64,000 nt of DNA from Liolophura sinensis (lineage: Eukaryota; Mollusca; Polyplacophora; Chitonida; Chitonidae). The stretch is from assembly GCF_032854445.1 (NCBI RefSeq), contig NC_088300.1, forward strand, positions 55,216,984 through 55,280,983. Direction: 5' to 3'. This document shows positions 1,030 through 63,199 of the stretch, one piece after another; the stretch's first letter is position 1, and every line of letters begins with the position of its first letter. The notes beneath the pieces were generated by a model, which was given only the letters and a program-made list of their open reading frames with translations, searched no databases and had not been told where the DNA came from. The translations under genes were made by a program, and so were the position numbers.

Positions 1030-3007
1030 ATGACGAAACCATTGACTGTCGTAAGTAAAAAAGTGCTTGTTCAATTTAATTTTAGACAAAGCTATTTGTG
1101 CGAGTAACTTTTGATTGAGGATTCCAAACGTCTGACATATTTTATTTCGTCTGATCGAGAGACTGCCAGTGGCAGTCCTCGAACTGCTGGAAAAGTGTCT
1201 TAGTACAATCCTTTTAATTAGAGGTGAAGTGTCAGATAACGTCACCATGTGCCTAATACTTTAATTGACAAGAGTGTAAAATAGGTGGTCTTCTGTTACT
1301 TAGCCGTGAACGTATCCAACAGCTTCGAATAGCTTTCCTTTGTCCCACACAAATGGCGTTTGGCCACCCGTTACGCTAGTGAATGGAGTTTGTCAAGGCC
1401 CATTGAAGTTGATTTCCCGTCCAGATAGGAGCTGTTCTTAAAATTTGTTATGTATATATATACATATATATATATTATACTAGTGGTTTATGTTGTGTGG
1501 GGTGAAGAGAATTATTTAAAAAGCTTTGGTCGAAAAAGCTGGCAAAGAAATGAGCGATCAGCTGGTAGGCGGAAATGACGATTGCTGCCATTATGTACAT
1601 TTGCACGTGACGGTTTAAAAGCACGTGACATTTAGCGAGCTGTGTAGGTGGTGGGTTATTCAGGTTTCTACTCACGTGTTTTATAATTACTTAAAGGCTA
1701 CTTAGTTACAACCAGAATATAGAAACATAATTAAGAGATTTGAATAGGTAATTTAGTCTTCGCGACATTACTTTTTGTAATATTGCAGAATCCCTGTTAA
1801 GATGATGGGGACACAAGCTCATTGATTTTGAGACAGCAAGATTTTCTTCCAGTGATAAAATGCTCGAGTATAATCCTTGAAAGCGTCATATTAAGACATT
1901 TAAATTGGTGTGACTGAAGTATGCTTTTAAAATAATAAAGTTTCATGAATGTTTATTCCTCTGTATGAGATGTTTTATAATCATCTATTAAATGCATTTT
2001 ACTTTTCATTAGTACTAGCTTGTAAATCTATGGTTTGAAAAACTGAAACGGACAGTCAAAGTATTAAGCTGTGTGCATCCTCCTCTTCCTGAGCGTAGAA
2101 CTTTTCTCAAAATAAATATTGTAGTGTTTCTTTTACATACAATGCATATACAACTTTCTCATATAACTTTATCTCACTGTCCTATTCTTATGGTGTGAAT
2201 TAATTTAGCTTGAACACACTGATCTCCAGAAATTTGGATATTGAAATATCGATACATGTGATGCATTGCTGTGTTTTTTCTATATATTTTCAGTTGAAAA
2301 GTGTTGGCCCAAAGCTAGTACCATTCTTCAAAACATTGGCTATCTTTTTTGTGCTTTTTGGAGAAGAGGCCAAGTATGGATCTATCTTCTTCTGCATCAT
2401 CAAATGTTTACCAGTGATATCACTGATATTGTTTGTGTTACTACACGGCATGAGTTTGTCCGAGCACTACTCATATTCCAGGAGAATTCTCACGGGCCTC
2501 ATCTTTGCTTGTCTGGGGGATATCTTTCTTGTCTGGAAAGATATGTACTTTGAACATGGAATCCTGATGTTTGCTGTGGCACAGATTTTGTATGCCTCTG
2601 CATTTGGGTGGTCTCCATTCAACCCGTACGCTGGATCTGTGCTGGGAGCCATAGGTGCGGTTGTGTACTACTACCTACAGCCTGCTTTAGATGGGCCAAT
2701 GGTATACCTGGTGGGGATGTATGTCGTCCTGATCTCCACCATGGCATGGCGGGCCATTGCCCGTGTGCAGTTTTTTGATGACCTGTGGACCTGGACCAAA
2801 CTCTGCGGCTGTGCTGGAGCTCTGCTCTTCATGACTTCTGACCTCGTCATCGCCATTGATAAGTTCCTCTTCATGGTGCCATTTGCCCATCAGATTGTCA
2901 TGCTGACCTACTATGCTGCTCAGTTTGGAATTGCGCTGTCTGTCGTGGACAGTCAAGTGGACTCAGTAATGAAGAAAACCAAGTCTAAGATCAACAGTGT
3001 TATGTAA
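1030..3007 (+). CDS. TMEM86A: TMEM86 (lysoplasmalogenase / YhhN-family membrane protein)
   Basis: There are two coding exons: 1030-1050 (seven codons, MTKPLTV, donor GTAAGT) and 2294-3007 (acceptor TATATTTTCAG). The join is phase 0 and reads MTKPLTVLKSVGPKLVPFFK, which aligns with the start of vertebrate TMEM86A (MVSPVTVVKSEGPKLVPFFK). The 244-aa product matches the family length of about 240. It shows about eight hydrophobic segments and family motifs such as KCLP, FxxxGDxFLxW near the middle, HGxLMFAVAQ, YLVGxYV and SDLxIAxxKF. TMEM86 proteins hydrolyse the vinyl-ether bond of lysoplasmalogens in ER or plasma membranes. An open frame continues upstream of 2294 but lies in the intron and should not be used as the start. 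A run of C (3009-3026) follows the stop directly. Confidence 0.93.
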
Positions 3008-19290: not shown

Positions 19291-22200
19291 CTATGTGGAT
19301 TGAAAGGGATTAGCCCAGTTCAAACTGGATAAATTAAATTGTGAATTGTCCAGCTCATCTACAAGACATGGGTCAATCTCAGCCAATAAGTGACTGATAC
19401 TCTGAGGGTTGTCTTTAGTCTGGCAGTCAATGTCACCTCCCCCGTGAAGAGGAGAGAGGTCGGCAGAGTTTATCTGTAACAGAGAGGCGTTCGGAGTGTC
19501 AAGCAGACCATTTGCTATCTTCAACCAGGCCTCCAGTGACTTCACGGGAGTCACAATGGTCGGGGAGTCACAGTCGAAGTTAGCAGGTAAACAGTCCAGG
19601 AAGCTCCCGTTGCACAGCCCACCCAGTCTGCCAGGTGTCAGACCAGCAATGGGTGACAGCCACTTGGGAGAGTCCGCCATAGACTTGAGTGGTGTTGATG
19701 ATGCAGTCGGCTCAGCTGCTGGTGTGTCCAGAAGTTGCCGTAATGGAGTAGGTAATCCATTCTCTATATCATTGTCTAACTGGCTTTCAGTGATAATTCC
19801 ACTGTCCTTCACAGGTGTGCTATTTTTCTGGACAGTTCTGTTGCTTTTGCCGGATTTCTTTCTCTTTGATTTTGACTTTGAGTACATTTTTGGTTTAGGT
19901 AGCCCTGGTTTAACCTTTGTTCTCTTGCTGGGCTGTTCATCACCCGTGGATTCCTGGAGGAGTGTGGTTTCTACGTCCATACAGCCTGCTGTGTTCCACG
20001 CTTCTTTGATCACATTGCAGGTGTCAACCTTCCTTTCCTCAGATGCCACAACTTCAGGGCTGCAGGGGACTACACCTGTATTAACAGCACTTGACAGCTG
20101 CTCATTCCCTGAAACATAGCAATACGCTTAGTCCAAGACACAAACAAGCCAAACACAGACGCTGGAGTCAACTGTTCAAACTCCACTAACGGTTCCCTAC
20201 CAGCATCACTACTTTCACGAAACATATTATTTTTCATAAATAAGATTTAATCATTTTAAAGTATTCAGGTTACTAAAAAGTTTGCTAGTTTAATTAGAGC
20301 TCTGTATGAGTGTAATAGTCAATAATCGTATCAAAACAACAAAATGCTATGCTATCCACTTCAGAGAGGTATACATGTGGTAAATGACCTAATGTTTCGT
20401 ACAGGACTAAGTCACCCCTTTTGCCTAAGCTCTATTGATCTTAGACAGTTGTTTTGAGGTTTCTTTAGAAGGTAGGATGACAGACTACTACGAAAGTTTC
20501 AGCACCAAAAGTAATGTTTTACCATGTTTATTTACCTCTTAAAATACATTTTTTCTTACCATATTGTGTTTTACACTATCAAATTATAGAACAACTCTGG
20601 ATTAGATTGGTCTACAAAATTAGGTGCATCCGTTTCTGTATTTATTTAACACACAAACATCTAATAACGACTAATACCCTATAATAAAACTGTACTGAAA
20701 ATATGAATTATTCATTTTGACTGACATACCTTGATACCCTTGGGCCTGATTGAGTATCACACCTGTATCCATGGGCTGGGGAATTGGGACTGGCTGATTA
20801 GCACCAGGAATCATGGATAACTGTGATGTAGTGGATGGCAAGGCACCACCCAGAGAGCTGATGGGTATAAGTGCATAGGCCTGAAGAGTTCCTCCAGGGT
20901 TTCTCATCAAAGGTAACGACACAGGTGGGCGTGGCAGGATGGGCGTAGGACCTTCAAGATAATTATGTATGAATGAATGAATATGGCTTAACACCACTTC
21001 GGTAATAAACAAGAATATGTTTAAGCTTAGGACAATTAGGACAAGTACAGTTACAGACTCCATGATATGAAAATTTTTGATGATGGTTGCACAGATATGC
21101 TCCTTGGCTAAACAGATCTGTGGTCCTTCATCATACTATGCAAAAATACCTTTCTTTTCCTTTTTCTTGAGGTGCCCAGATTGAGCTGCAGGTTGGTTAC
21201 ATGATTGCCCAGGAATATTCAGCTGAGTTAGACCTAATGAGGCTGCATTGAAGAGGGGCACCGATGACAAGACATGTGTAGTCAGGGACTGGTTGTAGTT
21301 ATCCTGTGAGGCTAGAGTATCTGTGAAAAAAGACCGGACATTTAGACCAGCATACAACTACTGACCTGATGTGTCTGTGTTAAACAGCACACAGCAGTTA
21401 GTGTTATAGGTGGAGGATGCCTGAGAGCCCAAGTAAAAGACCACACTTTAAAAAGTAACTGACACTTTCCCACATAAAATGCACAAAACGTCACCTACAG
21501 AGACAGCTCAGTATGTATGCTCGTATGAAAACCCGAAAAACGAAACTTCATGTAAGACCATGAAATATAAAACAAATCCTGTCCAATTTTTTGTGAACAT
21601 TAATGCATGCAAATCTTGGAAATTCTCTGCCCAAGGCAGCCTTGACTCACGACCTCACCCAGTAAATCTGTGACTCAAATTACAAGGCCTATCTCAACTT
21701 TGATTAAGCTACTTTATACCACAACATATTTTTGTTTCTAATCAAAGCAGAAGCATACCTTTAGCCTGGGAGGATTTGGAGTATTTCATTTTCTTGGAAT
21801 TACTGTCCTTCACAGTCCAATGGGAACCGTGCTGTTTTGGGTTAGAAGGAACTCTGACGAATATGTCATAAACAGACAAATTGTGACGGATGGAATTCTG
21901 AAAGACAAGCAGTAAATATAAATCATTTGATCTTCATTGTTGCGCAATATGTGGGTATCTAAAATCTGTAGTAACACATTCTTTCAGAATTTACAAGTAT
22001 AGAAAAAACAGTCTGTTGAGCACATAGTGTAGCCTGAAAGGAAACCCATAGTGTCTCCATTGTGGACCCAGTTTTCATCAGTTACTTAGACCTTGGAAAA
22101 CTTGTCAAAACAGAGTAGCAAAGGCCGCAATACATGCAAGGGTTATAGATAATGTGAATAACAAGCAGTGATGCTTGTGTGAGCAAAAACTGAAAGTTAA

Positions 22201-25200
22201 TCAAACTACACATGCCCAGCCACACTTTGTAACTTTAGTACACTGCTTTTCCCACACTGAGAAATTAAATGCAGTTTGGGTCGGCTGTAAAGCTACAAAA
22301 CACACAAGCACAGTAGCCAGAGGTTAGTGCTGGTAGTTAGCATGCTCCTTGCTAGAGTCCAATCACAGGCTGTCCAACAACTTGGTTGCTCTGATGAATG
22401 TCTTGAATTGTGGACCCAGTTTCGCATAGCCCATGACTGAAGAAAGGCTTTGTGAGGTTACCCCCTGTTTTATGACCCTACTAACACAAGAAGACCGAAC
22501 TACGAATTCAATCTGGTAAGATAAGCTGCTGGACTTATCAATTAAATTGAGTGACCTTCTCTCGTCATCTTCATCAGTCTAGTATCCTCCAAGACGGCAA
22601 GATGGGAGACTAAATTACGGATGAGAGAACTGAAAAAAAGTATTATGACTTAAGCTTCGCATGATCTATCCATCAGTACAATAGTTACCCTCCAACCAGG
22701 TTTTGCGGTGTACTTGTAAAATGGGAATGTGTCTTCAATCCATTTGCAGATTTCTCGCAGTGTCATCTTTTTGTCTTCACGACTGTTCATGGCCATACGG
22801 ATCAACATCATGTACGAGTAAGCAGGTCTTTTGTGTCTTCCACACTCCAGACTTACCTACAAACAACGGCAGTATTATGAAATAGTCAGTAATTGCTTTG
22901 ATTTTCCCTTTTTTTTTTAAGCTTTATTTCAGTTACATGAATATCTTAACACATTTCGTTTGCAGGCCAGATCATTTTTTTTTTATGTATTTATTTATTT
23001 CATTGGTGTTTTACACCGTACTCAAAGAGTATTACACTTATACGACAGCGGGCAGGATTATGGTGGGAAGAAAACGGGCAGAACCCGGGGGAAACTCATG
23101 CCCTTCCCATGTACTGCTAGCGAGGAAGCCAGCATCAAATGGACTTGAACTCATGTTACCGCCTGTGTGAGAGGTTCCTGGGTCATTACACTGCACTAGC
23201 CCACTAACCAACTGAGCCACAGAGGCCCCCATATTTATAAAGATGAGGTCATGCTCTCAAGCTACCTAGTATTGGACTACCTAGTAAAAGACTACATATT
23301 GGAGAATAAACGCAAATGTTCACTTCAAGCCATTCAAACTGAATGTTCTGTATTTTTCCTCTAATAGCGAATTTATGAACTTTCAGAAAATGTGACTCTC
23401 AGTGCCTTGAAATTTTCTGTTTTTGGGCAAAAATTAATTTTTTTTAATACATGTAACTCCAATTCAACTCAAATTATGAAAGGTTATGCATGCATAGAAA
23501 TGTAAAAGCATTGCCATATATGGATGAAGATGGCCGGTGTGCAATGGTCGTTCAAAATGGACCCCTATGATTCCTTTCATTCTCAGCAAAAGCAATTCTG
23601 ACGTCAAGATTCACAGACAGATTGACATATGTAACCCATGTGTTTCCAGCAAGAATGAATACAATTTGTCATATACATGTTCTTGAGAGACAGTTCAGCA
23701 AACAGTGCACCACAGTGTTGAACATTAACCTCATGCATACTGTAGGAAAGTGCAGAGAAATGCTAACCTAATTCATCCTCAAACACTTATATTTAAGCCT
23801 ACAGCCTGCAAGGCTACTTCATTAATTCACGATATACATGTGTAAGCCCTGATAAAGAAATTCTCGTTACCCTTTCAATTTCTTTTCCAGTTGGAATAGC
23901 TCCTGGTTTACTTTTAGGGACCAGCCCTTCAGATGCTAATCCACCAAGCCACTGAATATTTGTCAGGGAATCATCAAGGTTCACACTCTTCTCACCTAGC
24001 GGAACAGACACACAAGAAAATGTTTGGAGGTAATCTGTGGCATTCTGATGTCTTTAAACATATGTGCATTTGAGTACAAAAAACAATGTAAAGACATATT
24101 CATTCATTGTCACAAAAGGATTCTATACACTATTACACATGTTATTGTAAATGTAGTACTTGAGAATATTTCACTCATATAAATACTTATAGGTCACTTT
24201 TATGGATGCAGGAAATCTGATTGACCGGCAAAACCACTGACTCTTACAAGTGACTTTTGAGACTTTCCCCAGTCAGCATTGGTTTTCAACAAAAGCTACA
24301 TATAGCCATACTAGCTAAGCTGAAGTTACGCCAGGCTTAAATCTTAATAAAGGTCATATCCTTGTACAAAGCAAATGACACTTTAGTCTGGGACAAAGTC
24401 AATACAGGACTTGAGTCCTGATACACTTTTGAACAACTGGGCCCAGGATTCTTACTAAAAATGTTTTAGAGTGTCAGTCAGGTTATGTCTAACAAAGGTA
24501 TTTTTAATGATGACCCGATAAAGATGGATTTACATCAGTGTCAAACAGACACTAATATTATAACTGTTACCTTTAATGTCAGAGGTGACCTTCTGACTGG
24601 TGGAGGCCTGCACAGGGCCTTGACTGTCGGAGTTAGCCTGGATGGTAATATGTATTTGTGTCGCAGGGGAGCTAGTTCCAAGAGTATCAACTTTATTCGT
24701 CACTGGTACAGAACTGTAGGTAATTAAAGGTGTTGTGCATGATGTGTTACCGGATGTTAACAGCACTTTAGGGGAATTTGCAGTCTTTCTGGAGCATTTC
24801 TGATTCGGCGTACTTGACTTAGGGAAAGACGGACTTTCCTGAACAACAAATATTTTCCTTACAGCTCCAAGTTTTTCTGGCAATTCAGGAGTAGGTGTTT
24901 TGTATGCATGGCGAACAAAGTCAGGAGTAATGGTGCATTTGTTTTGAGATCCAGAAGACACAGGAGTTTTATTGGAAAATCCTATGACAGTGCTCGCGTC
25001 ACTTCCGCATGATGGGCTTGCAAACAGTTTTCTATTAAGAGCCACGTTCGTTCCCGTCAGATCATTTGGACTGAACGTGATATTACGGCCAAGTGTAGGT
25101 CTTTTTACTGATGTTTTAGCATCTATTACATTTACATCTTTTCTGATACAACCACTTGTCTGATATGTTACTTCTGGAGACTTTGATGCAGATTTAATCC

Positions 25201-26780
25201 ACTTGTCTTTCTGATAGCATAACTTGGGACAGAGTACCAAGCCTGACTTAGTTTGAGTTTCTGGCAGTTTACTAGTAACCCCAAACACCTCGGCCAGTTC
25301 AGATGAAGATGTGTAAATGTCTTCATCCTCAGACTCATCACCAATATTTGCCAAGTTCCTCTTTACTCGGTCTCTGGTCCTCTCATTCAGTTCTAGTCTT
25401 CCTTGTGAAATTGTCACACCAGTATCCTCATTTTCTTTCTTCATGCAGATAGATTTCATTCCACCTGACTCAGCCTGGGCCACATGCTTGTTATCCTTCA
25501 CAGCAATCACATAGGTTTTGTTACCATCTTGAACAATCTTAACATCTCTGAATTTTCCATCAGCTGGGCTACGTACATTGTAGACCACTGCATTGCACAT
25601 TTTATCCAGCAATTTACTTGTTTCTGTCATTTTCAAACAGGCATGTTACATGGAAATTGCATCACTGATCTGCATAAGTTCCCTTGACTTCTGTGGAAAA
25701 AGCAGAATAAAAGCAAATGACATATACAGACTTGATATTTCACTTGGGAATACATGCAGCAGATATTGATCAGCTGTGTCAAATAAGAACTATAAAACCA
25801 TATAAGTCTTCTTGCATAGGAATATCGTACTATCAGAGAAGTGCATGACTAGGCCAGAGGTTCTTTAACCCAACAAAAACATGATACAACATCACAGGGT
25901 GGATCTTGTTGGGCTGTTATAAAGACTAGGGTTACATTACATGTAACTTTCCACCTCACTACTTACGTTAGTTCATTCATGCCTCGCTGAATGAGGCTGG
26001 CCAAACATGGGTTGATACTCGAAGAGACCCTGTTCAGATGTAGTCCATGTGACAAAAGCATGTGACACACCCACATACATCTTCTACCCTTACCCTGTTC
26101 ATCTTTCTTAAAGGCATCTAAAAACCATGTTCTAGCCCATCAACTTGAGTTGCGTAGTGATAAAAGCAAAAGGCTAAGATCCCAATATGCTGTCTGATGC
26201 AAGTTCGAATCCACAGCATTCCAAAACAAATTAAGTAAATCCTTTCAAAAAAGTATAAATCGCCAATTATACAGTGCAACAATGTCATATTAATGACAGT
26301 GACACGTGACAGAATCTACAATGATAAACGTCAAGAAAAATCAGTCAAAGCATACGAGCGTGAGGAAAAAATGACGTCAGAATGCACGTGGAAATCAACA
26401 CGTAAATATAACTTCCTTAGTCCTTACAACTCCCTAGTTGGGGTGGCAGGAATGTACAAAAATTACGTCAACAAAAGACCTAGTCTGGTTGCATAGCAGT
26501 GATATTCAGTATTTCAGCGGGAGGTCCGAGAAGTCTGTCCACATCACTATGTCAGCTGACCAACAGGACAAAGTCTTGCCCATTCTTGACCGAACAACAA
26601 CACCGTCTTTAACTTTGCTTAACAAACACGGGACATCAAAAAAATAAACAACCAAATTCACCAACACTCACCTATCTCCTCAGGAGTACATCATTTTAAT
26701 GCTCGTGTGAAATGATGAGATGTTCACTAACCCAGCGAAAAGGCCTGGACAGATCCGCAGCATGTCTGAGCAGATCTTCG
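19291..26780 (-). CDS. FOXM1: FOXM1, forkhead cell-cycle transcription factor
   Basis: The exons are: 5' UTR about 26672-26780 (upstream edge unknown, donor GTGAGTG), 24571-25690 (ATG at 25630), 23871-23995, 22689-22856, 21759-21897, 21150-21320, 20730-20951 and 19291-20108. The CDS is 2703 nt (900 aa) and every join keeps phase. The diagnostic stretch DDSLTNIQWLGGLASEGL (361-378) matches the FOXM1 N-terminal motif. The forkhead (about 405-495) contains RPAYSYMMLIRMAMNSRED, FYKYTAKPGWRNSIRHNLS and VYDIFVRV. The PTPILPRPPVSLPL stretch after it matches the human MKPLLPRVSSYLVPI region. A KEN box (65-67) and an RxxL D-box (78-81) suggest APC/C-Cdh1 turnover. The acidic C-terminus ends SSLNWANPF, like human DNINWSQF, and carries STPVK, STPLK and VTPVK CDK-type sites. 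FOXM1 activates G2/M genes. The product is longer than human FOXM1 (about 750-800 aa), mainly through the large second exon. Confidence 0.94.
22984..23231 (-). mobile_element. Near full-length SINE in FOXM1 intron
   Basis: This reads as the reverse complement of the common SINE. It starts with TTTATTTATTTCATTGGTG (the tail) and passes through the core with GCAGGATTATGGTGGGAAG. It ends with the tRNA-like head, visible as CACTAACCAACTGAGCCACA, the reverse of the A-box. It lies in the intron between 22857 and 23870 and has the same orientation as FOXM1. Confidence 0.88.
26140..26235 (+). mobile_element. tRNA-like SINE head, second type
   Basis: A near-canonical Pol III B-box (AAGTTCGAATCC, about 26209-26220) is preceded at a suitable distance by GTTGCGTAGTGATAAAAGC, which resembles a decayed A-box. 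It lies in the first FOXM1 intron. It does not fold into a full tRNA by eye, so a SINE head is the better reading. Confidence 0.45.
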
Positions 26781-26792
26781 CCCATTTTAAAT

Positions 26793-26921
26793 TTTGAACC
26801 TTTTAAGCGATTGACCAATGGAATGTTTCGAATTTCTCTCGCGATGAAGAACGAGATTTCGTAAACCGAACGGGTTGCATGACACCAATTTTGATTGGCT
26901 GGCTGTAATAAGTGGACCAAT
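26793..26921 (-). promoter_or_regulatory. FOXM1 promoter: four CCAAT boxes and TTYGAA elements
   Basis: Four NF-Y-type boxes are present: CCAAT at 26815-26819, 26885-26889 and 26917-26921, and ATTGG at 26894-26898. A palindromic TTCGAA (26827-26832) and a TTTGAA (26793-26798) lie beside them, toward the FOXM1 transcript. The CHR consensus for DREAM/MuvB-regulated G2/M genes is TTYGAA, usually next to NF-Y boxes. Vertebrate FOXM1 itself is such a gene. The TTTGAA reads on the + strand. The motifs are visible; their role is inferred. Confidence 0.65.
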
Positions 26922-26924
26922 AGA

Positions 26925-28790
26925 AAGTATTGTAACAAACACAAGTAACTTGACATCTATGGCGGAATGTATCAACAAAAGCATGTGATAAGTCTAGACA
27001 TGCTTTTGCAAGTTAGCCCCTGTCCGTGGAATCAATATTCATCGTTCATGGTACAGAACCCATCACGGTTTAAAATCAGAATGTCAGTAATTGTTTGCTT
27101 TCAGTTACTATGCTGAATGGATTTCTTTTTAGGCACGTTTTGCTTTAAATGTTTAATGGTGGTCATGAATTATTTTATTTATGTTTTACGTGTTACTCAA
27201 GAATATTTTGTCGGCGATGGAGATTTTGAGCTCGCCTATCCAGCTTAAAATTTATACGAATCTTACTGACAAGTAGTAAAACTTAATCGTATCAAGCCCC
27301 ACACATGCTGATTGCAGCTTATGGTTGGCATAAAAATTGCAATGTCATTCGGGTTCTATTCCAATGTAGAGGTAACACATTGGAGAGATGTATATGGCAT
27401 CAGTTGTGCAGAAAAAATTTAAATACATGTACTCAGTAGGAGCAAAATTTAATTTTACAGGTAATGGAATACACTGAAGCTAAATTAAGTACAGTGTGCC
27501 ATCAAACCTGGGATTCCCTCTCCAGTATTCAAATTTATTAAATTACTTTTTTCCATCATATATCTCCTTATCACCATAACCCTTTTCATCCTTCAGTCCA
27601 GAGTAGAAGAATGGTGTACCTAAACACAACATTTATTCCTTATTTCATGCATTAATTCTTAAATTGGCCATTATTTTGTGTTTACATTATGATGTTATGG
27701 TTTGTTACTATAAAACATGATTAAACGCTCCTGTGCCACCAACCCTCAGCAACAAGTCCTCTCAAATGTGTAGTGAAGATTGATGAAGATCATTTCCTGA
27801 CACAGTGGCAATCTTTTTCACCTCAAAAATGAAAACCATTGCTTTCTGAATGTGATGTTCATTTAGGTTGTGTGCTTACATGCCTATTTCGTGTTGAATA
27901 TCCTGTTCTGAGTCTCGAATACCAGAAAGGATTCATGAAAACTGCACAAGTTCACAAAATAAGTACATTTTCAGACACTACACCCACTGTGGCCGCCATC
28001 TGACTCTGATAGTCGTACATCCAACTCATGTGATCAATGTGAGTGCAGAAAAAAATTATGGAATCATTATAGTATCACAAGGCAAGTCTAGTCGTCCATT
28101 TCACTGGTCCACATCCCATGTCGTCAGATGGCACAAATCACTTCAGCCTTGTTCGCAAGTGATCAAGATGGTGACGGACAGTTTACGCCCACAGTGGGGG
28201 TTTGAAAATGTATTAATTTTATGAATTTGTGCGGCTGTCAAGGATCATTTTTCATTCGGCAAGACTCAGAACAGGTTAGTTGATTATGGGGACCAAGATT
28301 TAATACACTTGTGAAGATGCAATAATTGTGGCTTACCATCGATCTGACACATTTGAAGCAGTTTTTCCCAGTAACTCTCCCGATACTTCGTGTTGGAGGA
28401 TCCAGAGAGTTACATTCTGCAACTAAGAAGAATATTACAATACACTCAAATCATGTCATTGTAAACACTTTTAGATGTGCGCTATTAAATTATTACAAGT
28501 CCAGCTCATCTCCGGCAGCAGGAGGGAAGGTCTGCCAGCAACTTGTAGATGGCCATGGGTTTCCCCCAGACTCTGCTCATTTCCTTCCTCCATATTGCAC
28601 AAAACACCAATGAAATAAAAAAATAATTAATTATTCTGATGTTAAGAAAATTTAATTTTACCTCTGTAAATTTAACATAGCTTTAATATGGAATGTAGCT
28701 TGCAGGTGGTAACTTATTATAGTTTGCCCTGGAGATAAATTGAACTTTTCTGCCTTTCTTTCTCGGAGCTTCAGAAATTTCTGTAGTCAG
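26925..28790. other. Gap between FOXM1 and RHNO1
   Basis: This must contain the non-coding first exon of RHNO1, because the ATG exon begins at a splice acceptor (TGTAGTCAG, ending 28790). Several weak donors exist but I cannot choose among them. One partial SINE lies at 28498-28626. No coding signature is seen. Confidence 0.5.
28498..28626 (+). mobile_element. Partial SINE upstream of RHNO1
   Basis: The core is recognisable (GGAAGGTCTGCCAGCAACTT, GGGTTTCCCCCAGACTCTGC) and the tail ends AAAACACCAATGAAATAAA. The 5' head and part of the middle are missing. Confidence 0.75.
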
Positions 28791-31601
28791 GAGAATGCCT
28801 CGAAGGACCAGGAAGAATTCTGCATCACAGAGGAAACCCTCACTGATATTCACAGAGAGTCCAGTCAACCTGACACGGAGCACAGCATCTCCTGTCAGGT
28901 GTGCAAACCATCCCCAGACAGCCAAAGTGATACCAGTGGAAGATCTAGCTGATCTAACATGGGTGGGTGTGAAAATATGTGTGCAATTTATGTGCAAATG
29001 GTGAAAATTTCTGCATGATCAAGGTGGACACATTTATTTATTTATTGATAAGTGTACTCAAGAATATTTGACTTATATGATGATGGCCAGCATTATGGTG
29101 GGAGGAAACCGGGCAGAACCCTGGTGAAACCCACGACCATCTGTAGGTTGCTGGAAGATCTTCCCACAAATGCCCCCGAGGAAGCCAGTGAGAGCTGGAC
29201 TTGAGCTCAAATCCACCACATTGGTGAGAGGCTCCTGGATTATTAAGCCACACATGGAGGCCCCTAAGGGAGACACAGTAGGGTCAAACAGATTTAATAA
29301 AAAATTATGCTCATTGTATTTAAGGAGGCCATACTGTAGCTTTTTGGCAGAAAATTGATCAGGGTTGGTTCAATTGAATTTTGCTATTTTTTTTTTTTGA
29401 ATACTCCAAATAATTACCTTTCACAAAATATCAGCCTCATCTGTGCAAATTTAAATTACCATTCTAAATCAGTAATACATGTTCCTAAAAGTTCCTAAAA
29501 GTTGTAACTTTTTTAAGTACTTAGGTTGCACCCTGAACATCAGCGTCCAATAACAGGGAAAGCAATGTCAAGCAAACTATTAAGGGTGGTATCTTTAAAA
29601 GTAATACAGATGTGGAGATCAAAGTTTGCCCATATGTAGAGCACAATAGCATGAGGGGGATATTCCATTGTTGTTTTGGTATGTACAAATTAAATACCGT
29701 AAAGTACTGGATTCCTGATTTAGTGTATTGTGTACTGAAATCAATGTTATATAAAATGTTTGGGGTGATATCTCAAAAAGTACTGCAGTTATTGAGCTCA
29801 GGGTTTACACAGTAGGACCATAGAGATATTCCATCGTTGATATGATTTTTGCATATTAAATACCGTAAATTCCTGACTTTCCTGACTCCTAACTGTGTGG
29901 TTTATTAGAATCAAAATTAGACAAAATCTTATGGGTGGTATCTCAAAAAACACAGTGTGTATTGTATAAATTACAGTGACACAAGGGAGATGTTCCATCA
30001 TTGATGCTGAGCTCTGTGTGCATATTAATTACCGAATTCACGATTTCAGTACTTTATGTACTCAACTGAAGTTTTGCATCATTTGTCTCCTACAGGCCAT
30101 TTGGTAGCCTTGCTACTAAATCTAATTCAAATTGTAGAATCATTTTGACGATAGATAGTACAACAGTACAGACTCTTTTCAGAAAAATCTACAAAACTAT
30201 GTCAGAAACGTTTCAAAAACATAAACTATTTTCAGCATTTGAAAATGATCTGTAGACCTGCATATATTAGCCAAACGGGTGCCCTTAAGCTAAACAATAC
30301 TGTGTAGAGGAAGTGACATACCTGAAACCCAGATCTTTCTATCTGAATGTGTGATAACGTGTATCCTACTTCCCTTTTTGGCATATGAAAGACCAACTTT
30401 CAGTAAGGTTTCTGCATCTTTGTAATTTCATTTTGAAGACAAAATTGCATTGGTTGTGTTAGCCAATTTCAGGGCTTGGCAAAAAATTTAGTTTTATCAG
30501 TCTACACAAAATAATTCCCTCAAAATATGCATGAATAAACATCTTGCAAACATGTGAAAGGGTTGAGGAATTACATTATCACCAAATTATTTCCCTATCT
30601 TTATCTCTAGAAAATAGAAGACTAACCGAGTTAACAGCAACATTTACATGTCCCTCCAACATCAGATGAGCAGTCAGTTGTTGGATACATAATATTTGAG
30701 CTCACCTTATCTGCATGCTTTCAGCCCATCTTGAACATATACTTCTTTTCGCAATTTTTTAAAGAAAATGATATATTTTTTTTCTGCCACTGATGCTATA
30801 AAAAGGTCTGGAACATATTCCTCTTGCAATTTCATGTATTTGGTGTCTTTATATTGTTTACAGGTGTCTCCACAGTTTCAGGGAGCACGAACTAGCTGTA
30901 GAAGGCGAGGTGGGCGAAGACGAAATCTGTCCAGATCCACCATTAACACACGCTCATGGTCAAATGGAACAGGGAAAGAAAACCTCCAATGTTCCTTTGG
31001 TGCTCGCAGAAAACTTCTCAATGGCTTTGTACCTCTGCGTTTTGAATTGGACAAGTCTGTTGAACTGACAGAAATTGAAGATGTGTCTGATGTCGATGCA
31101 GAGACTGATTTGAACTTCACCAGAAATGTGGGATTGGACCGCACTAGCTTCAATACTACTGCTGCAGTAACTCCCCCAGCACAATCTCCCCACAGGGATC
31201 GTGGTACTGGACAGCAGGGTGACAGTGAGAACAATGGTGAAGCTCAGTCGCGTTTTGTTTTGAGTCTCTCTACACTGAACCAACTGTGTGCAGCATCTGA
31301 GAGAAGAAAGCTTGAAGGTGATATGGTGGACATTGAAATGATCTCGATGCAAAAGATCGAAGACAATGAGCAAAGCAAGAATTCTCCTGACATAGGTAAA
31401 CTACGAAGGTCTTCCAGATTAAGAGACAAATATCGCGAAGCCGTTGAGCTGTTGAGAAGTCCAAGTGGCAGTGAAGTAAATGAGGAAAAGCCGTGTAAAA
31501 TACTGGTGTTAGACACCCCAGAGAGTGAGTATGGACTTACACGTCGTCACCTCAGAAACAAGATTAGGAAAAACTTCATCTACAGCAAACTGCTGCATTA
31601 G
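28791..31601 (+). CDS. RHNO1: RHNO1, 9-1-1 clamp-interacting checkpoint protein
   Basis: There are two coding exons: 28791-28962 (ATG at 28795, donor GTGGGT) and 30864-31601 (acceptor TTGTTTACAG), joined in phase 0, giving 301 aa. The ATG is followed by a basic stretch, MPRRTRKN, like human MPPKKRRR. The join restores LTWVSPQF at residues 54-61, almost the same place as human TSWVSPDF, whose SWV motif binds the RAD9-HUS1-RAD1 clamp. The C-terminus has ILVLDTPESEYGLTRRHL, matching human VLVKDTPEDKYGIKVTWRRR. The middle is low-complexity and not alignable. RHNO1 works in ATR signalling at damaged or stalled forks. The gene lies head to head with FOXM1, as in vertebrates. The identification rests on two short conserved motifs, the basic start and synteny, which together are strong. 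The intron holds a SINE and a diverged tandem repeat. Confidence 0.85.
29032..29268 (-). mobile_element. SINE in RHNO1 intron
   Basis: This is a reverse-complement copy: tail TTTATTTATTTATTGATAAG, core AGCATTATGGTGGGAGGAAA and GAAACCCACGACCATCTG, and head remnant GAGAGGCTCCTGG. The A-box part is degraded. Confidence 0.87.
29580..30060. repeat. Three diverged tandem copies, about 175 bp each
   Basis: Three units begin near 29582 (AGGGTGGTATCTTTAAAAGT), 29759 (TTGGGGTGATATCTCAAAAA) and 29932 (ATGGGTGGTATCTCAAAAAA). Each then repeats a GAGATRTTCCAT-like block, a CATATTAAATACCGTAAA-like block and a TTCCTGA-like block in the same order. The copies are clearly related but heavily diverged. They lie in the RHNO1 intron. 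Confidence 0.75.
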
Positions 31602-42400: not shown

Positions 42401-45400
42401 TTGTCGCCGCAGCGTCTTGTCCAATACAGATTTTCAACACAACAAAGACTTTCACAATACCACTCTATAATGTACAAGTGGCTCAGTTGGTTAGCGTGCT
42501 AGCAGCGTAATGACCCAGGAGTCTCTCACCAATGCGGTCGCTACGAGTTCAGGTCCAGCTCATGCTGGCTTCCTCTCCGGCCGTACGTGGGAAGGTCTTA
42601 CAGCAACCTGCGGATGGTCGTGGGTTTCCCCCCGGGATCTCCCCAGTTCCACCCACAATAATGCTGGCCGTCGTTGTATAAGTGAAATATTCTGGAGTAC
42701 GGCGTAAAGCACCAGTCAAATAAACAAATAAAATGTAATGCACAAAACACTTCCGAATAACTTAATAATACAGTATGACATGAGATACATGGTGGTTTCC
42801 CAGGATGAATCCTTGCTGCCAAAAATCCCATGTCTGTGTACCATACCATGGAGTCACAGTGATCCTCACCTCTAAAACAAAAGCATCTTTACTGCCGAAT
42901 GACAGCTCCAGATCTGACTGTTCCTCATCACTGTCATCAGTCAGGGTGCTGCTTGGGCTCCTCTGACAAAAATAGTCCTTACAACACAAAAAAAAACACA
43001 AAATACATATAAAGAATTCTGCAGATTCATAACTTCGTTACAACTGATAAGCAGTTTCTATTTATATATTTAATTGACCTTTTAAGCCATATTCATTTAA
43101 GCATTATGGTGGGAGGAAACTGGACAGAGCCCAAGGGAAATGAACTTATACATGTACACACGTACAACTGTAGAGATAAATAACTTTCATAGGAGTTCAT
43201 ATGAGAAAGGAGAATTCTTCTTTGTTGACTGATTAAGTGTTATAATTACATCATTCCAAACAATCTTTTAGTGGTGCATGTGTGATGGCAGACATAGCCA
43301 GTGGAAACCCAAAACAGATATTAGGCACCATAAGTATAAAGTACAGTGTACGTGCAAATTAACTTTTTGAACCAATTCGGTTTTACTGTTCTGGGACATT
43401 ATGGAATTTAGATCAGACTTCATAATGCCATGTACTGTGGGACTTTTATCTGTATGAGTGGTTTGCTAATTTATATCACAATATTATACAGATCAACATG
43501 CAAAACCTATAATCTGAAAAAGGACAAGTTTTTTCCTTAACTTTGCAGTTTTACTCAAATAAAAAACTGCTTTCATCAGAAAATTTGACATTACCACAGC
43601 ATATTAAGGCAACAGTGAACAACTATCAATATTTATCTGTGCTCAGGAATTGAGAGGGAGTGGGTGGGGGGGGGGGGGTGGAGACATAAAAATCTGTAAA
43701 ACATCTGTTGCAAAGACTCTCACTGCAAACAGTGTATTAAAATCATAACAGTTGACAAAATTAGAAGGACTACACATACAGCTGTGCTACCTGTGAACAT
43801 TATTGATAGATCACCAAGAAAACATGTTAAGACAGGCTGTACCATGATTCAACTGACTGATCATGGTGTACCATAGTTGTGATCAGCATTATCTATAGGG
43901 TCATGCCTGAGATCCCTTAGCTGACATCTTGAGCTGTCATGCACCACTAAACTGACAAAAAAACATCACCCTGACCAAAGTGGCAATATGTGGATATATA
44001 CACACATTTTCCTTGACAATCTCAATGACTTTTCTTCTAGATTTTAAAACAGCCTTTGAAAATGGTTTCTAATAAGCACTGACCACTTTAATTAAATAAA
44101 CATAAAGTAATTCCTCAAAAGCTGATCTCAGTTTACAACCAAGTAGTGCTGTCACTGGGGTCTGACTTTTCTGTACTTGTTTAAACACTCGCAGTAAAGT
44201 GTTTACTCTGCCAGGAGTGGTGACAAACAAAATCGCCTACCAGCACTGACTGAATGTGACTGGCTTGAAAGACATGTCTCTTCACTGAAGGCTGAGGCAA
44301 TCACACATGAGCACACACTGTCTATCCAAGGAGAATCTACAGGTAAATACTTCATGTGAGTACTTATATAGAACTCCAGCATTCTATTACATATTAAACA
44401 CCGATCATCACTGATTAGAACATTTTCGCTTCAGTTTTATTTCTGTTAGGTTTAAGTACATTTTTATTTTGGTAGATTTATACTTTCATTTATATCTTTA
44501 GTTTTGAATTCCATGAAAAAAAAAAGACGACTTACATGTACTTGTATCCCCACAAGTAGAGTCTGTCTACCAGATGCTCCAAGTCACTAAATTCTTATGT
44601 AAATAGTAGTATTAGCATACTTGTGTTATCAAATGAAAATTGTGACTACAATCTTATTATTTGCAGTCTCACACATCACATCATGACAGACTTAAGAGCA
44701 GCAGCTTGTAGAGGTGACATACTGGAGCTCCAGATTCTATTGGACGATGGTCAAGATTTTCACTCCAGTGACAGGGTCAGTAAACTGTCAATACCATGTT
44801 ATGGAGAGACAGTACACATGTAGCGTGGTGTCATGATGTTAAAATTTTAATGCTCATTACAGTTTAGTGTTTGATTCTTTAACTTTTAATCCCTTTATGC
44901 TGACATCCACAAAAGAGTAAACGCAAACAATACGAGAAATTTTACAGACATACCGTTACACATTCAAGACTTGTAATTGTTCAAGACCATTCCACTGATG
45001 GTAGGCACAAGTTTTGTCACTACTAAACAATCCCTGAGAATTTACATCAGCAGTTCTTCCCTTTCTGTTCTCTTGACACTGTTCAATGACACCAGATTGC
45101 CTACATGAAGCTCATTAAGTGTTCAACTGATTCTGAGATCGGATGAAAACTTATGTTTAAATCCATGATTTCTTCTTAAATCCATTATTTTGCTGCAAAT
45201 GAACAGTGATCAACTTTGCATTTTTGTAGCCTGGAAACTGCCAGTTGTTACAGGAATATAGCTTAGTTGATTAAAATGTTTTATCAACACTTATGTATCA
45301 TTATTCACAGAATGGAGACACAGCTCTACATTTGGCTGCATTTGAGGGTCATCTGCCTATTGTCCAGGAACTTATTCAGATAGGGTCAGAAGTGAATGCC

Positions 45401-48400
45401 AAAAACAGGGTATAGTAAAGTTCATTTGTATGTAAACACTTGTGGCACAGCCTTGCTTGAAATAATTTAGAAAAAAAATTGGCTTAAATTAGGATCTTTA
45501 ATACTGTGATATTCTTTTTTATCATCTTTACCATTCTACACACATATCATGTCGTAAATATTACAGGCAAAAGCCAACAAAATATGGAAATTCATTCATC
45601 TTTTTTTATAATATAAAATCATTGTTGGACAGCCATACGTGCAGTTAAATACTGTTAATAATTTATAGCAATTTGACTTTTATACTGGTGGAAAGTATTG
45701 AGCAACAGGTGGAGTTGCAGATAGTATACATGCCTGAAGCAGTCAAAGATGTACCAGTACAATGTATATAACTGGTTACATGTACACTGTTTTTCTTGTT
45801 TTTGTCAGAATGGCCAGACAGCTTTACATCTGTCTGCCATCAGAGGTCACACAGATATTGTGATGGAGCTATTACATTCAGGTGGAGAAAGGTCAGCTCA
45901 GACAAAGGTAAGGCATGTTAGTAAAATTACAATCAAGCTTATTAAAGTCCAGGATTTGTGTCACTCACTGATTATTATATACTGAATGCTGTCTAATTTG
46001 GCACTAAAGAATGTAGTCTGAAGAGATCTGCTTTCAGGTAGTACATAATGTGTGCACCTCTGAACACTGAAATAACACAGCTCTCAGAAAAAGCCTTTGA
46101 AAATCAAATTAAGTAATGCACCATGATCAACCATGCCATAACTGAGAAGAGATGTACTGTAATTTATGACCGGTCAGCTGAAACACAACCTCAGCAATGT
46201 ACATGTAGTCAAAGCAGCTTGTGAACTAATATTGTTTTCTCATAAGCATAAGCTAACAATTACTCTGATATCATTGTATCTAACCTGATCCATATGGTCC
46301 TTACATGCTGATACCATTGTATCCAGCATGATCCCTATGGTCCTTACATGCTGATATCATTGTATCCCGCCTGATCCCTATGGTCCTTACATGCTGATAT
46401 CATTGTATCTAGCCTGATCTCTATGGTCCTTACATGCTGATGTCATTGTATCCAGCCTGATCCCTATGGTCCCTATATGTATTTTATTCTAGCTCGTGTG
46501 TAGTGCTAGCTGGTATGTACCTGGTAATATTAAGTCACCCAGCTGGCAGAACTTAACATTTGGAATAAAGTGTATATTTTACAAGGCTGTACATCACACA
46601 AACTTTAAAACATGAGATGGCAACAGATTTAGTACACTCAATAAGTTTGAATTTATTCTCACTGGTGGTTGGGCAATATATGCATATTTACTCTAACTCG
46701 CTTTAGTACAGTGGGATGAGTGCCCTTCACCTGGCCTCGCATAATGGTCACCTGGATGTAGTGAAGCTGTTACTCGAGACGGGAGGGGACGATACTCTGG
46801 ACGATGTGAGTACATGCACTAGTATACCAGACCTATGTGAGGCAGTCAGTCAACACATAGGATAAATCCAGCAATAAAAACTTTAAAACTAGAGTGCTTC
46901 TTTCAAGAATCTGTCATGTTATGCCTCAAAAACATATTTATAATGACTGCCCAAATCAATGAGGGTGCCAAACTCATTCCACTGTTGTCTTTCTAGATAG
47001 GAAAGCCTGCAAGATTCTATAGTACATCTGAAGACATTCGTGAAGCTTTCAGCAAACACGAGCACACTGAAAAGATGATGAATAAAGAAATTCCGCAGCC
47101 AACATTTGGTGATGACAAGATGGAAAGCACAAGAACTACAGCTGACAGGGGGTCGACACTGACTACTGACATGACACTGCTTACAACAGCTAAAATTCAC
47201 AGTAACAGTCTCATGGTATCTAAAACATTTCTAGATTTCCCTGAAGGCAAACGACGGAGAAGTCGATCTCACTCACTGGAGAAAATAAAATACCTCCACG
47301 AGAAAGAAAAGAGTGCTGAAGAAATTCCACCCTTTGAGAGACCAACCAGTAAAATCAAAAGAAGAAGGAGTCGATCTCACTCAGTCCACAAAGTGAAGCC
47401 CTCAGAAACTGAAAGTGAAACTAAGCTATTGTCCCGTCCTCAACCAATCCAAATAGAGGAGAGTGAAGAGATCCAGGAGCTGGAGGTGACCAAGGGAAGA
47501 CCACTGAGGAAAGAGCCTAAGACTGCTACTGAGTTACCTCCCCTCACTAACCCAACTGTTATACCCAGGAAAAAGCAAACGACAAAAGGCAAACCCAAGA
47601 ACAGTCATGTCCTTATAGACAAAAAGTTTCAATTCTCTGAGAAGCATAAACAACGAATGAAAGAGAGCGTGTTTGACAGATTGGCTAAAAAGTAAATAAT
47701 ATCAACAGTCCAACAAACAACCAATGTAGTTGAATTACAGCAAGATCTTATTTTTATTTTCAATGTAACGACAAAATCATGTGAATGAGAACAAAAACTC
47801 ACAGTGTTCTGAATCTCAAATCGCTCTTTATTTTTCTGTATGGTGTGAACAAGTCTCTTCTGCAGCTCTGCCACATCTGAAATGTCCTCTTCATTTGTTC
47901 CCTGTTCACAGAGGCAAATTAAATAATACAAAAATCATTTGGTTCTGTTTAATGAAAGTCTTCAACGAATGCAAGACTGTCTTGTCGAAGACTCGTCAGC
48001 ATATTCATGTTGATTTACGGGAACATATCTGATGTCTACAGGCCTATTTCATTTGCCACAATCATCACACAATAATACCATCTTTCACCCATCTTGCCCT
48101 TTCAAGCTAGTTTTGACAAGTCAAATTTTAATACAATCATTTACACATAAATCAATTTATTTATGAACACTAAATACAATACCGGTACTTCATAATTCCA
48201 TAGAATGGCAAATTACCTTGGCCTGGCTTGTGACTTTTGGAATGTGTGGTGATGGCAGAGGAGCAATGAATACAGCCGTGGCACTCTGAAATACACAGTC
48301 AGCATGAATTATTGTAGTTATAAGTTATGAACACAACAATTTCATTATTTAAGATTTGATTGTAATAATTTTTAGATTTATTGGGGTATAAAAAAACTGC

Positions 48401-57400: not shown

Positions 57401-60400
57401 ATAAACCACATGTGTATGTAAAAATGCTACTAAATGTTTCACCTCATCATCTTTATTCTAAATTTACAGTTTTATATATAAATTTACTGTTAATTTAAGT
57501 GAATATCTGACTATTAGTACTATTTAAGAAATAAATCATGGTGCACGTTTTTGGACCAAAGTATCAGTATTTCTGCATGCTCACTTTTGGAAGTCTCATC
57601 TTTAATAAGGTATCACATAACCAGTGAGTGAGTGCTTAGAGTTTAACATCGTACTGAACAATTTTTCAGTCATACGACGACGAAGAAGTCATGTAATGTG
57701 CCTCCTTGTAGCAGGACGGATTTCCACCCCTCTTTTATCCAGTGCTGCTTAACTCAGACGACTTACTGAAGACAAGTAAGCTGTCCCACCTGATACATTA
57801 TGCTGATACAGGTGGAGCAGTTGTTGAGCTATCCCCTTAATGCTGAACGCCAAGCAAGGAAGCTGGAACTGCATCTTTTAAGATCATAGGTGTGACCAGG
57901 ACTGACCAAGATTGACACATAACAAGATGCTCAAGGTACATATAGTAGTATACTATATTAATGTCCTATTTTCACTGTGGGCAGAATAACACTAATACTT
58001 TGTTTTGTCTTCAAATGCACATGTCAGTTTCACATTCAATGTAGTGCTAATATTACAGTCATGTTATCATCTCCATGTATTAATATACATAGGCACAAGA
58101 CCAATGCATAATTAATGTCATTACGTGGTAAACTATACATACATGTGCATATGTGACCCATATATAAAGCATTGCTCTCAATGCAGAAGTCAGATTATTT
58201 TGACGTATATGAGGCAAGACTTTAGCACAAGGGTGTTAGACCTTACAATCTTAAAATACTCTCTATTTACATCATCAGTGATGCTGCCATAATCAAGAAT
58301 AATGTTATCCAGACAAAAAAATGCTGTACAATCTCCCAAAATGCATGTCACTTTTTATGCTGAGTTCATCTATGTACCTGCAGCACAGAAACACTTACTC
58401 TCTCAAGGGAGACAGGCCCAGTGGCGAGGACATCATGCCAATTCTGGCAATGTTTACAGCAGTTCCAATCCCACGCACAACAATCCCAGATTCTCCCTCT
58501 AAATCATAGCACTGCAGGTACCTGCAGAAACACAGAACAAATAAATAATACAATAAGGGGGAAACCTAAGTGTAACAAGCTACATTTCTGGTCTGAATAT
58601 ACTCAGACTGTACAGTAGGGATTATTATTTTTGCACATTATCTCTTATAACGGATATGTTGTCATTTACATAAAGGTAAACACTGAGCACAATCTGTAAT
58701 TCTCAAAGTATGAACTGACCAAAGATATCTAGAAATACAGATGTTTTATGTCCTATCACCTTGAAGATGCAATCCAAGAAATACAGTAATACATAGAAAA
58801 AAGAAGTGTTTAGGACAAATGCCCTGGTAGTTTTGAGAACAAGTTTGGCCTGCAATTAGATTTTTTATCCCCTAATTACCAAGCCACAAATTGGAAAACA
58901 AATGCAAGGTTAGATTGTGTCATCATGACAGAGAAGGTACATCGGTTGAAGAACACTTCTGCGGACAAATCCAACTGTTTCAACATGGAGAGGGGTTGCA
59001 TGTGACATCATCACCCTCACAGAACAATAGCCAGGTAGCTATACTGGAGACCAGATTACATGGACTGGTATAGCCGCAGTAGGCAAATACAGCTGCCGGA
59101 AGTAGTTCATGCAACCCTTTTGATTGAGTAACTTAGCAAAATGACATAACGCCAATTGTTCCCCCATACTGAATTAACTGACATAAAGTTGTTCTTTTAG
59201 ATGTTGATGTAATGACTGAATAACATACCCTATGACTGCATTACCACACATCTCCAGTACCTTCAAACCAATCTTTCGTTGAAGCTCTCCTGAAATATTA
59301 GCATCATTTAATTATACACACTGTACAATGTACATCAGATTCATTTCAACAGATTCAATATTAAAAGGTATATTACCACACTGATGACCAGATCAACTGA
59401 AAAAGAAAACTGCACAAGCACACACTTTCATCTGTATATTCATCAGGTCATTATTACATGTATTTATTTAAATAGAATAATACAAGCCATCATCATTTAT
59501 TGTTTAGAATATCTTTTACAGATAAAAGAGTAAAATTTGCTAGAATTCCCACATCATCCCAACACCCAAACGCCCATGATTCTGCCCATCCACAGATGAG
59601 TGTCCCCACACAAAGCCGAAAACAAAAGCTGTGTATTGTCAAAAGGGTGAGTAAAACAAAAGAGGTATATATAGAGAGAGATTATATATATATAGACAAT
59701 AGAATAACAATTACGTTAAAGAAGAGCTGCAAAAAGTTTATGATCTTAAATGAATGTTATCAGATAAATAAATCAGTAAATAAAAAGTGATGATTTAGTT
59801 TATTTTCTGTGACTTGCCAGAAATAAACTACCCAGACCTGGACTGTCTATAATATGCTCAAAACACCATGGTTTGTTCCACTTGGATTTTGGAATGCCAT
59901 GATAGTTTATTTGTCTCACCAAAAACTGCTACATTTTGCATGTTACATGTACAATGAACCATAGTAAAGATTTATATTAAAAATACCTATGAATTATTTT
60001 CACAAATAAAATTTCGAGAATTTTATTCAAAAACAAGAGAATACTGCAGACAATTTTTTGGGCAAAACCTGGAGGCACTGCAGTTGGACTTAACTAAATT
60101 CAGTAAAAGCAAACAATGTTGTAAAACACGAAAACATATTTACCAGAGAGTTTTGAGAAGAGCCTCTGCCTGGCTTCATTGGAAGCCCTGGGGGTCCTGA
60201 TACGATCTATCCACTGATACTCTGGGTCGTCATTGACAACCAGCTCCTCCACAAATCCCAGGGTGTGCTGTAGTTTATAACCAAATGGTACAGCAGCAGC
60301 TAAAAGAAAAGGACGTCGGATATCAGTAACTCTGGTAGACAGAGTGAGAGACATGTTTAATGGCAGAAGATGGTAAACTACAATGTACTCATGCCAAGGG

Positions 60401-62433
60401 TAATCAGGTTTCTAATTACTACTAAGTTCCATGCCCGTTATACAGAATTCATAAAAGCATGATCTTAGGCAAAAAGTAAGAACATATTACAGCTAAAGAC
60501 TGTAGTTTGTGAAGATAGTTTACCGATATCATGTTCACTATATGTAAAATGTTACCAGTGACTTACTACTGAAGAACTGGACCCCACAAGAAGACTGTCT
60601 GAAGCGGTTGAAATCACTGAAGAGGTCCACCTTCACCATGACACACAGCTCCCCTCGTATGCCTGGAACATCATGAGCATAAATCAATACAACTTTCACT
60701 CACACCTAAGACACTTTCTATACATGTACCATGTATACCTCAGCTCGAGATCTCCAAACCCATGGCCAAACACCACCACACTAACGCTCTAACCTTTGAG
60801 CTTCCCAGTGTAGCATTCTTATATGGCTCATTGCTCCAGATTGTGTAAATGCTCTATTAAAAAACTTCCAAATGCAGATCAGAACAACAGTGTAACTGTA
60901 TTTTATTGGCCAAGTGCTTCTCCTACAGATCAACCGTGAGAGCAAACAATCATACTTTCTGCAGGATGCATGAATTAGCCGATGTACTTTGTAAACTGCA
61001 TCCAAACATGACTTTCCACACAGCCGTAAAGCAATTAAATTACTGCAAAACTGCCTCAAGCAGGATGATGGAATCACTTACCCTGCATGGTGTCATAGAT
61101 GGGAAACCATCCATTGATCATGCCGGGTGCCTCATCTTTGGTCAACAGTGGGTTGAGATCAATGTACACCTTACCAATAGCATCATGGGCACTGTATGTG
61201 TCATAGTCCAGAACTCTGTAACAATAGAGGGCTGGCATATATGTCATTATCACTCTAGCATAACAACAGCTTGTCCGAACACAGAAAGCAATTTATTTCT
61301 TGTACATGGCTTGGAACAAAATCTCAGACTGTACATGTATCTAAATTTTACACTCAAAAATCAATGCATTACAAGGCATGGAAATGTAGTTTAGCCACAT
61401 ACACACCTGAGCTGCAGAGGTTCATCTTGGAGTTCTTCATCCTCTACCTGTCAAACACAAACATTTATTGTTTGAAAAAACACAGAAGGCTCCATTTATT
61501 TATTTGATTGGTGTTTTTACGTCACTCTCAAGAGTATCTTCAGGTTGCTGGAATACCTTCCCACACATAGCCGTAGAGGAAGCCAGAATGAGCTGGACTT
61601 GAACTCACAGTGACCACACTGGTGACAGGCTCCTAAGAAATTGTGCTGGATAGGCAATAGGCAAGCCAACCACGTCCGTTACAGCAGCCCCTCAAAAGAC
61701 TATGTAAATGGTACTATACTGCAACTGTAACTTAAACAATGGAACAAGTAATTAGAATCAAACCATCGTCAACAGTACTTACAGAATTATTAGGTAATAC
61801 ATGGTGACTAAATGTTAAAACTGCAGTACTGTACACTAATTTATATCATACTTAAAAGAAATACTTATATCATACTTAAAAGAAATAAAACAAACCTCAA
61901 ACCTAAACCACTCAGAATTCCACTGGGGATTAAGGGATTTTCTGTAAACATCAGTTTTAAAAATTGTGTTACAGAAACGAACCTGAAAATATGAAGAAAC
62001 AAAAGGATGTTTTAAGATTCTGATAACAATGTGGTGGGTAACTTGAGTCTCTTTGAGCATTAAAGAATTAAAGATCAAAAGGCAATAAGGGTGGTTTGTC
62101 ATACGCTTTGTTATAAGAGAAGTATGCCTTACAATAAACTTGCATAGAAGATTTGTAATAGTCTAATTTGAAATTGGCGAGAAAACAATTATTTCTATTT
62201 TCGTAACATATAAATTGAGATATCTCACACCAAATTTGTCAATTATAATTGTTTCTGATTTATTGTATAACCACATTACCATTGACAATGCATAGAAGAG
62301 ATGGCATGGCATGATTTATATAAATGGTGTTTGGCAACAATAAAATCATACAAAATAAGTAAGGACAATTTTAAATGTTTTAAATAAATGAGCAAATATC
62401 TGCCTTTTCTTGACATTTGTGTGGCACTCTATA

Positions 62434-62602: not shown

Positions 62603-62904
62603 TGTCTCTGAAAAGGAAAAAGCAACAACTGAATGACATCTCTTGACAGAAAAGGTTCCTTTTAACATAGGGCAAGGCTTTCAAGACCAGTTGGCTGCTA
62701 ATTAAGGAATAAATTTAGGTGAGGCTGCCAAAAGTATAGCACGCACACTTGCGCAGGTTTGCACTTTCACAGGAGACATAAGATGAGTGACTGAGATGCG
62801 TGGAGGCAGAATTTTGGCACTTCTCAACAAAAATTAAATATAAGAATGTATATCTCTACTGGAGTTTCAGCAATGATATAGCTTTGTAGAGATACATTAT
62901 CACA

Positions 62905-62975
62905 AAGTCTCAGATGGTTAAAGCGCTGGTTCACTGTAATCAATGCGGTAGATTGATCGAATCCAGCTTTTATGG
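62905..62975 (+). mobile_element. tRNA-like SINE head
   Basis: A-box-like TCAGATGGTTAAAGCGCTGG is followed by B-box-like GATCGAATCCAGC. No full cloverleaf is seen. It lies upstream of the C2CD5 ATG exon. Confidence 0.4.
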
Positions 62976-63199
62976 CCTTGCTGAAAATGCTTGCGTACAG
63001 AGTTAAACACCTATCAAGTATTGATACATAAATATATAATTACATCCAGCTTGATGTCTGTGATACAATTAAAACAGAGTATGTACTACGATTATTCGAT
63101 GACCAAATATCGCTACCACTTTGTAATTTCCCAATCGTCCATAACATTACCATGTCAAGAACTATTTATGACATAGAAACAAACACAAGATGACAATGG

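Follow-up and report, generated by a model that had tools for sequence, protein, structure and literature searches.

A 64,000-nucleotide stretch of the 609-Mb genome of the mollusc Liolophura sinensis (C6 55216984-55280983; hereafter the window, whose positions are numbered from its first letter) carries FOXM1, which encodes a G2/M transcription factor, and, back to back with it, a gene for the 9-1-1/TOPBP1 adaptor RHNO1 (RHINO). This locus is probably the molluscan ortholog of the divergent FOXM1/RHNO1 pair of vertebrates, inherited from the protostome-deuterostome ancestor. Both the orthology of the two genes and the ancestral pairing are supported by the evidence given below, and shared regulation of the genes in the mollusc is plausible from the DNA between them.

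An earlier examination of the letters alone (the sequence-only reading) had placed FOXM1 on the minus strand and an RHNO1-like gene on the plus strand, back to back. Indeed, the genes are intact, encode products of 900 and 301 amino acids, and are adjacent and divergent, with 3165 bp between their coding starts and no recognized gene in that interval. Their coding features are as follows.

25630-19291, minus strand: FOXM1 ortholog of 900 amino acids; intact spliced frame, consensus AG/GT sites, seven coding exons
25630-24571, 23995-23871, 22856-22689, 21897-21759, 21320-21150, 20951-20730 and 20108-19291, minus strand: FOXM1 coding exons
28795-28962, plus strand: RHNO1 coding exon 1 (residues 1-56), containing K14-P-S-L17-I-F19, a motif of the RAD9-pocket type, and W56
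30864-31601, plus strand: RHNO1 coding exon 2 (residues 57-301), containing VSPQF (57-61), the basic stretch, FVPLRFE (111-117) and ILVLDTPESEYG (269-280)
31026-31046, plus strand: FVPLRFE, RHNO1 residues 111-117, with the F-x-x-L-x-F-E pattern of human F91-x-x-L94-x-F96-E97
31497-31535, plus strand: KILVLDTPESEYG, a motif of the TOPBP1-BRCT1 type, with hydrophobic residues at -5, -4 and -3 of the DTP threonine (compare human Thr202)

Orthology of the two genes

By profile and motif, the 301-residue product is an RHNO1 ortholog. Its frame contains no internal stop and is joined across the donor TGG/GTGGGT and the acceptor TTTACAG/GTG. Comparison with a profile hidden Markov model, the check proposed along with the sequence-only reading, matches residues 1-282 to Pfam family PF15319 (RHINO) with an E value of 2.2e-17 and a score of 64.4 bits, relative to a curated cut-off of 25 bits. 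The N-terminal 63 residues alone exceed this cut-off (35.8 bits), with residues 1-62 colinear with profile positions 1-62, and a 47-residue C-terminal piece alone yields 17.5 bits. The reversed sequence, used as a control, yields no match to PF15319, and the middle portion of about 200 residues has no detectable similarity to the profile. A protein search recovers both exons at this locus as the sole match in the genome, with no second copy. A genome-wide search with the PF15319 family gave no match, whereas the spliced protein does match, apparently because the exons were scored separately. A phmmer search with the protein matched no chain in the PDB, as expected given that the structures are peptide-only.

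All four binding motifs known from human RHNO1 occur in order in the mollusc protein. Human RHINO binds RAD1 via 56-WVSPDF-61 and fills the RAD9 pocket with F91, L94 and F96 (PMC10937111), makes a second RAD9 contact through K13, L16 and F18 (PMC12907562), and is bound by BRCT1 of TOPBP1 at phospho-Thr202, upstream of which positions -5, -4 and -3 are hydrophobic (PMC6175577). In the mollusc, the RAD1-binding type motif WVSPxF occupies the same residues as WVSPQF, with Gln in place of Asp60. KPSLIF (KxxLxF) at 14-19 has the internal spacing of its human counterpart, and ILVLDTPE at 269-276 satisfies the hydrophobic triplet rule. The RAD1 and RAD9 motifs flank the basic stretch CRRRGGRRR, an order also described for the human protein, and both proteins are mostly disordered. 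They differ in length (301 residues versus 238 in human), in the position of the RAD9 motif (111 versus 91) and in the middle region, where no similarity can be detected. The basic start, the (T/S)WVSP motif near its human position and the C-terminal DTPE block that the sequence-only reading had pointed to are all present, the last two as WVSPQF at 56-61 and DTPESEYGLTRR near the C-terminus.

The receptor side is also represented, as RAD9, RAD1 and HUS1 are all present in the mollusc genome. In the RAD9 exon KTHNLAFIECETLQAVF, the interdomain connecting (IDC) loop ETLQAVF retains the L, V and F that form the RHINO pocket in human RAD9. Thus, the RHINO motifs and the pocket residues that receive them are both conserved. 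The mollusc protein would be expected to thread along the 9-1-1 clamp, contacting RAD1 through WVSPQF and the RAD9 pocket through FVPLRF as well as KPSLIF, while the phosphorylated threonine of DTPE would dock TOPBP1 and so sustain ATR signaling. The three clamp genes lie together on C10 within about 4 Mb (HUS1 at 11.21 Mb, RAD9 at 13.61 Mb and RAD1 at 15.22 Mb).

An invertebrate protein has been tied to the RHINO role before, in that Caenorhabditis elegans ZTF-8, which binds MRT-2/RAD1, was proposed as a functional RHINO counterpart (PMC4199516). However, ZTF-8 has 687 residues, C2H2 zinc fingers and SSLCPNA as its APSES block, whereas the mollusc gene encodes a plain, collinear RHNO1.

The FOXM1 product carries a Forkhead domain at residues 404-488 (PF00250, E 8e-29). 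Its top three PDB matches are human FOXM1 DNA-binding domains (7fj2, 3g73 and 9xs1; 91-92 bits), and the next-best Fox protein reaches 69.6 bits, so among Fox classes this forkhead is closest to FOXM1. Ahead of the forkhead we found LDDSLTNIQWLGGLASEGL, a candidate for the conserved FOXM1 block DDSLTNIQWLG. The C-terminal block ISHLLAEIDP...LSSLNW and, ahead of the forkhead, LDDSLTNIQWLGG presumably resemble their FOXM1 counterparts.

The interval between the genes

The interval contains four features that bear on how the genes might be expressed.

26101-27500, no strand: CpG island, candidate shared promoter; peak observed/expected ratio 1.13 versus a window mean of 0.32
26793-26921, no strand: island core; CCAAT at 26815, 26885 and 26917 (plus strand) and 26898 (minus strand), and sequences like the cell cycle genes homology region (CHR), TTTGAA at 26793 and TTCGAA at 26827
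25690-26672, minus strand: putative 5' non-coding intron of FOXM1; donor GATAG/GTGAGT (last exon base 26672) and acceptor TTTTTCCACAG/AAG (first exon base 25690)
27881-28560, no strand: dispersed repeat that contains an inverted-repeat pattern, between the island and the RHNO1 ATG; more than 100 matching pieces genome-wide

The window as a whole is poor in CpG, and the island is the only one between 25.1 and 42.2 kb. Its 129-bp core holds two CHR-like sites along with four CCAAT boxes, one pair of which is spaced at 32 bp. Among Markov sequences of the composition of the island, four CCAAT boxes per 120 bp occur in 1.2%, and the addition of two CHR sites lowers this to 0.1%. The GATAG/GTGAGT donor at 26672/26671 is the strongest in the interval by position weights (6.88), and the acceptor at 25690 is good, which suggests that a non-coding first FOXM1 exon begins within the island, with a start near 26.7-26.8 kb.

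From these features, we propose that the island would drive FOXM1 and RHNO1 as a single cell-cycle promoter, acting through NF-Y at the CCAAT boxes and through MuvB/DREAM at the CHR sites, such that the transcription factor and the checkpoint adaptor would be produced together in dividing cells. A list of p53-p21-DREAM targets includes both human FOXM1 and C12orf32 (RHNO1) (PMC4705690), which fits control by CHR and CCAAT elements without proving it for the mollusc. The human FOXM1/RHNO1 bidirectional promoter (F/R-BDP), stated to be conserved in vertebrates (Barger et al., 2021; PMC8104967), likewise involves the same two genes arranged head to head with an intervening CpG island. In the human system, however, the start sites are close, co-expression has been measured and the named sites are those of E2F/MYC, whereas the mollusc locus has coding starts 3.2 kb apart and displays CCAAT and CHR sites.

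This distance is one of several points that weigh against a shared promoter. The island holds no strong donor for an RHNO1 first exon; the best candidates are at 27371 and 27460, and the highest score, for TACAG/GTAATG, is 3.36. Another cluster of four CCAAT boxes occurs at 34338, outside any recognized promoter, so the CCAAT/CHR core is only suggestive. Start sites, joint expression and non-coding first exons are, moreover, predictions.

Could the two genes then have been linked ancestrally but promoted separately, with the island serving FOXM1 only and RHNO1 starting elsewhere before 28795? We regard this as possible but somewhat unlikely. It would account for the strong donor of the island being on the FOXM1 strand and for the wide spacing of the coding starts, and a second, weaker CpG rise accompanied by a YY1-like CCGCCATC at 27.9-28.5 kb might seem to offer RHNO1 a promoter of its own. 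That rise, however, is due to the dispersed repeat that sits there, so this stretch was rejected as a separate RHNO1 promoter, and there is no further CpG island before 42.2 kb.

Neighboring genes and the origin of the pair

In human, the gene order at 12p13.33 is FKBP4, ITFG2, NRIP2, TEX52, FOXM1, RHNO1, TULP3 and TEAD4 (PMC8303811), and horse and pig have the same gene set around FOXM1/RHNO1. The mollusc likewise keeps ITFG2 close to the pair: its exons lie on the plus strand at C6 55282944-55287402 (window-equivalent 65961-70419), about 34 kb beyond RHNO1. This proximity supports inherited linkage. Unlike in mammals, where it flanks the pair at the FOXM1 end, ITFG2 lies past RHNO1, and a C2CD5-like gene intervenes. 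TEAD and TULP, considered as further linked genes, were rejected because both are on C1, another chromosome. The linkage to ITFG2 therefore survives in rearranged form, and the mammalian neighbors on the RHNO1 side are not linked. These two departures from the mammalian order count against common descent of the arrangement, as does the fact that the invertebrate evidence comes from one genome.

The lack of wider conservation is what would be expected if FOXM1 and RHNO1 had become neighbors independently in molluscs and vertebrates, but we judge this very improbable. By our estimate, two given genes out of about 25,000 would end up as divergent neighbors by chance at a frequency of the order of 1 in 10^4 to 10^5, and a given gene such as ITFG2 would fall within 50 kb at a frequency of about 2 in 10^4 (three mammalian neighbors were tested). 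Still less credible is membership of the 301-residue protein in another family, with a chance likeness of short motifs in a disordered protein: the unmatched middle 200 residues, the missing PDB match and the general disorder of RHNO1 would permit it, but the profile score, its N-terminal share, the silent control, the four ordered motifs and the adjacency to FOXM1 speak against it.

Both orthologies, the head-to-head order and the nearby ITFG2 together make common descent much likelier than chance, and they uphold the proposal of the sequence-only reading that the pairing predates vertebrates. With the genes back to back in mollusc and human alike, the partnership is probably as old as their common ancestor. 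With less confidence, we favor a fuller account in which a single promoter would have been retained since the protostome-deuterostome ancestor through selection on co-expressed signaling for mitotic entry and replication stress, and in which FOXM1, RHNO1 and ITFG2 would form an ancient bilaterian micro-cluster.

Other genes near the pair or elsewhere in the genome were also noted. Scans with NCBIfam and Rfam and for tRNAs gave no matches.

36441-60411 (approximate extent), minus strand: C2CD5-like gene; PF23025 matches the exon at 60100-60411 (E 6.4e-10), other exons recognized by eye
44560-47695, plus strand: ankyrin-repeat gene, apparently nested inside the opposite-strand C2CD5-like gene
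62801-63800, no strand: second CpG island, between the C2CD5-like gene (minus) and ITFG2 (plus), apparently another divergent pair
75-82 kb (window-equivalent), minus strand: kinesin-14 (KIFC1-like) gene following ITFG2, recognized by eye
2204-3004, plus strand: YhhN family gene (TMEM86-like lysoplasmalogenase), with a CpG island from -199 to 2100 at its 5' end
C8 37880506-37891931: eight-unit hemocyanin gene; the beta-sandwich units form one array, the layout of a mollusc hemocyanin, and each is contained in a single long open frame

Novelty and significance

The sequence-only reading knew of no description of the arrangement outside vertebrates. For the pair this stands, as no account of it was found in the literature searched. 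For RHNO1 itself it does not: in 2018 the TOPBP1 motif was called 'highly conserved in RHNO1 homologues in metazoa' (PMC6175577), and with ZTF-8 also on record (PMC4199516) the gene is not new outside vertebrates. Our literature search on the pair and on RHNO1 in invertebrates, which lay outside subscription journals and gene databases, found nothing else of relevance, and automatic annotations may already contain the pair. Fox repertoires of annelids and molluscs have already been surveyed (PMC9539403).

In recent papers, both RHNO1 and the conserved shared promoter are discussed in terms of vertebrates. With a mollusc pair in which every known binding motif occurs, the arrangement would date from the bilaterian ancestor, an argument for constrained rather than incidental linkage of FOXM1 and RHNO1. 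The finding is a useful evolutionary extension of a known gene pair. Mollusc RHNO1 provides a deep outgroup for judging which RHNO1 residues matter, and the locus offers a non-vertebrate promoter with which joint control of mitotic entry and checkpoint signaling may be tested.

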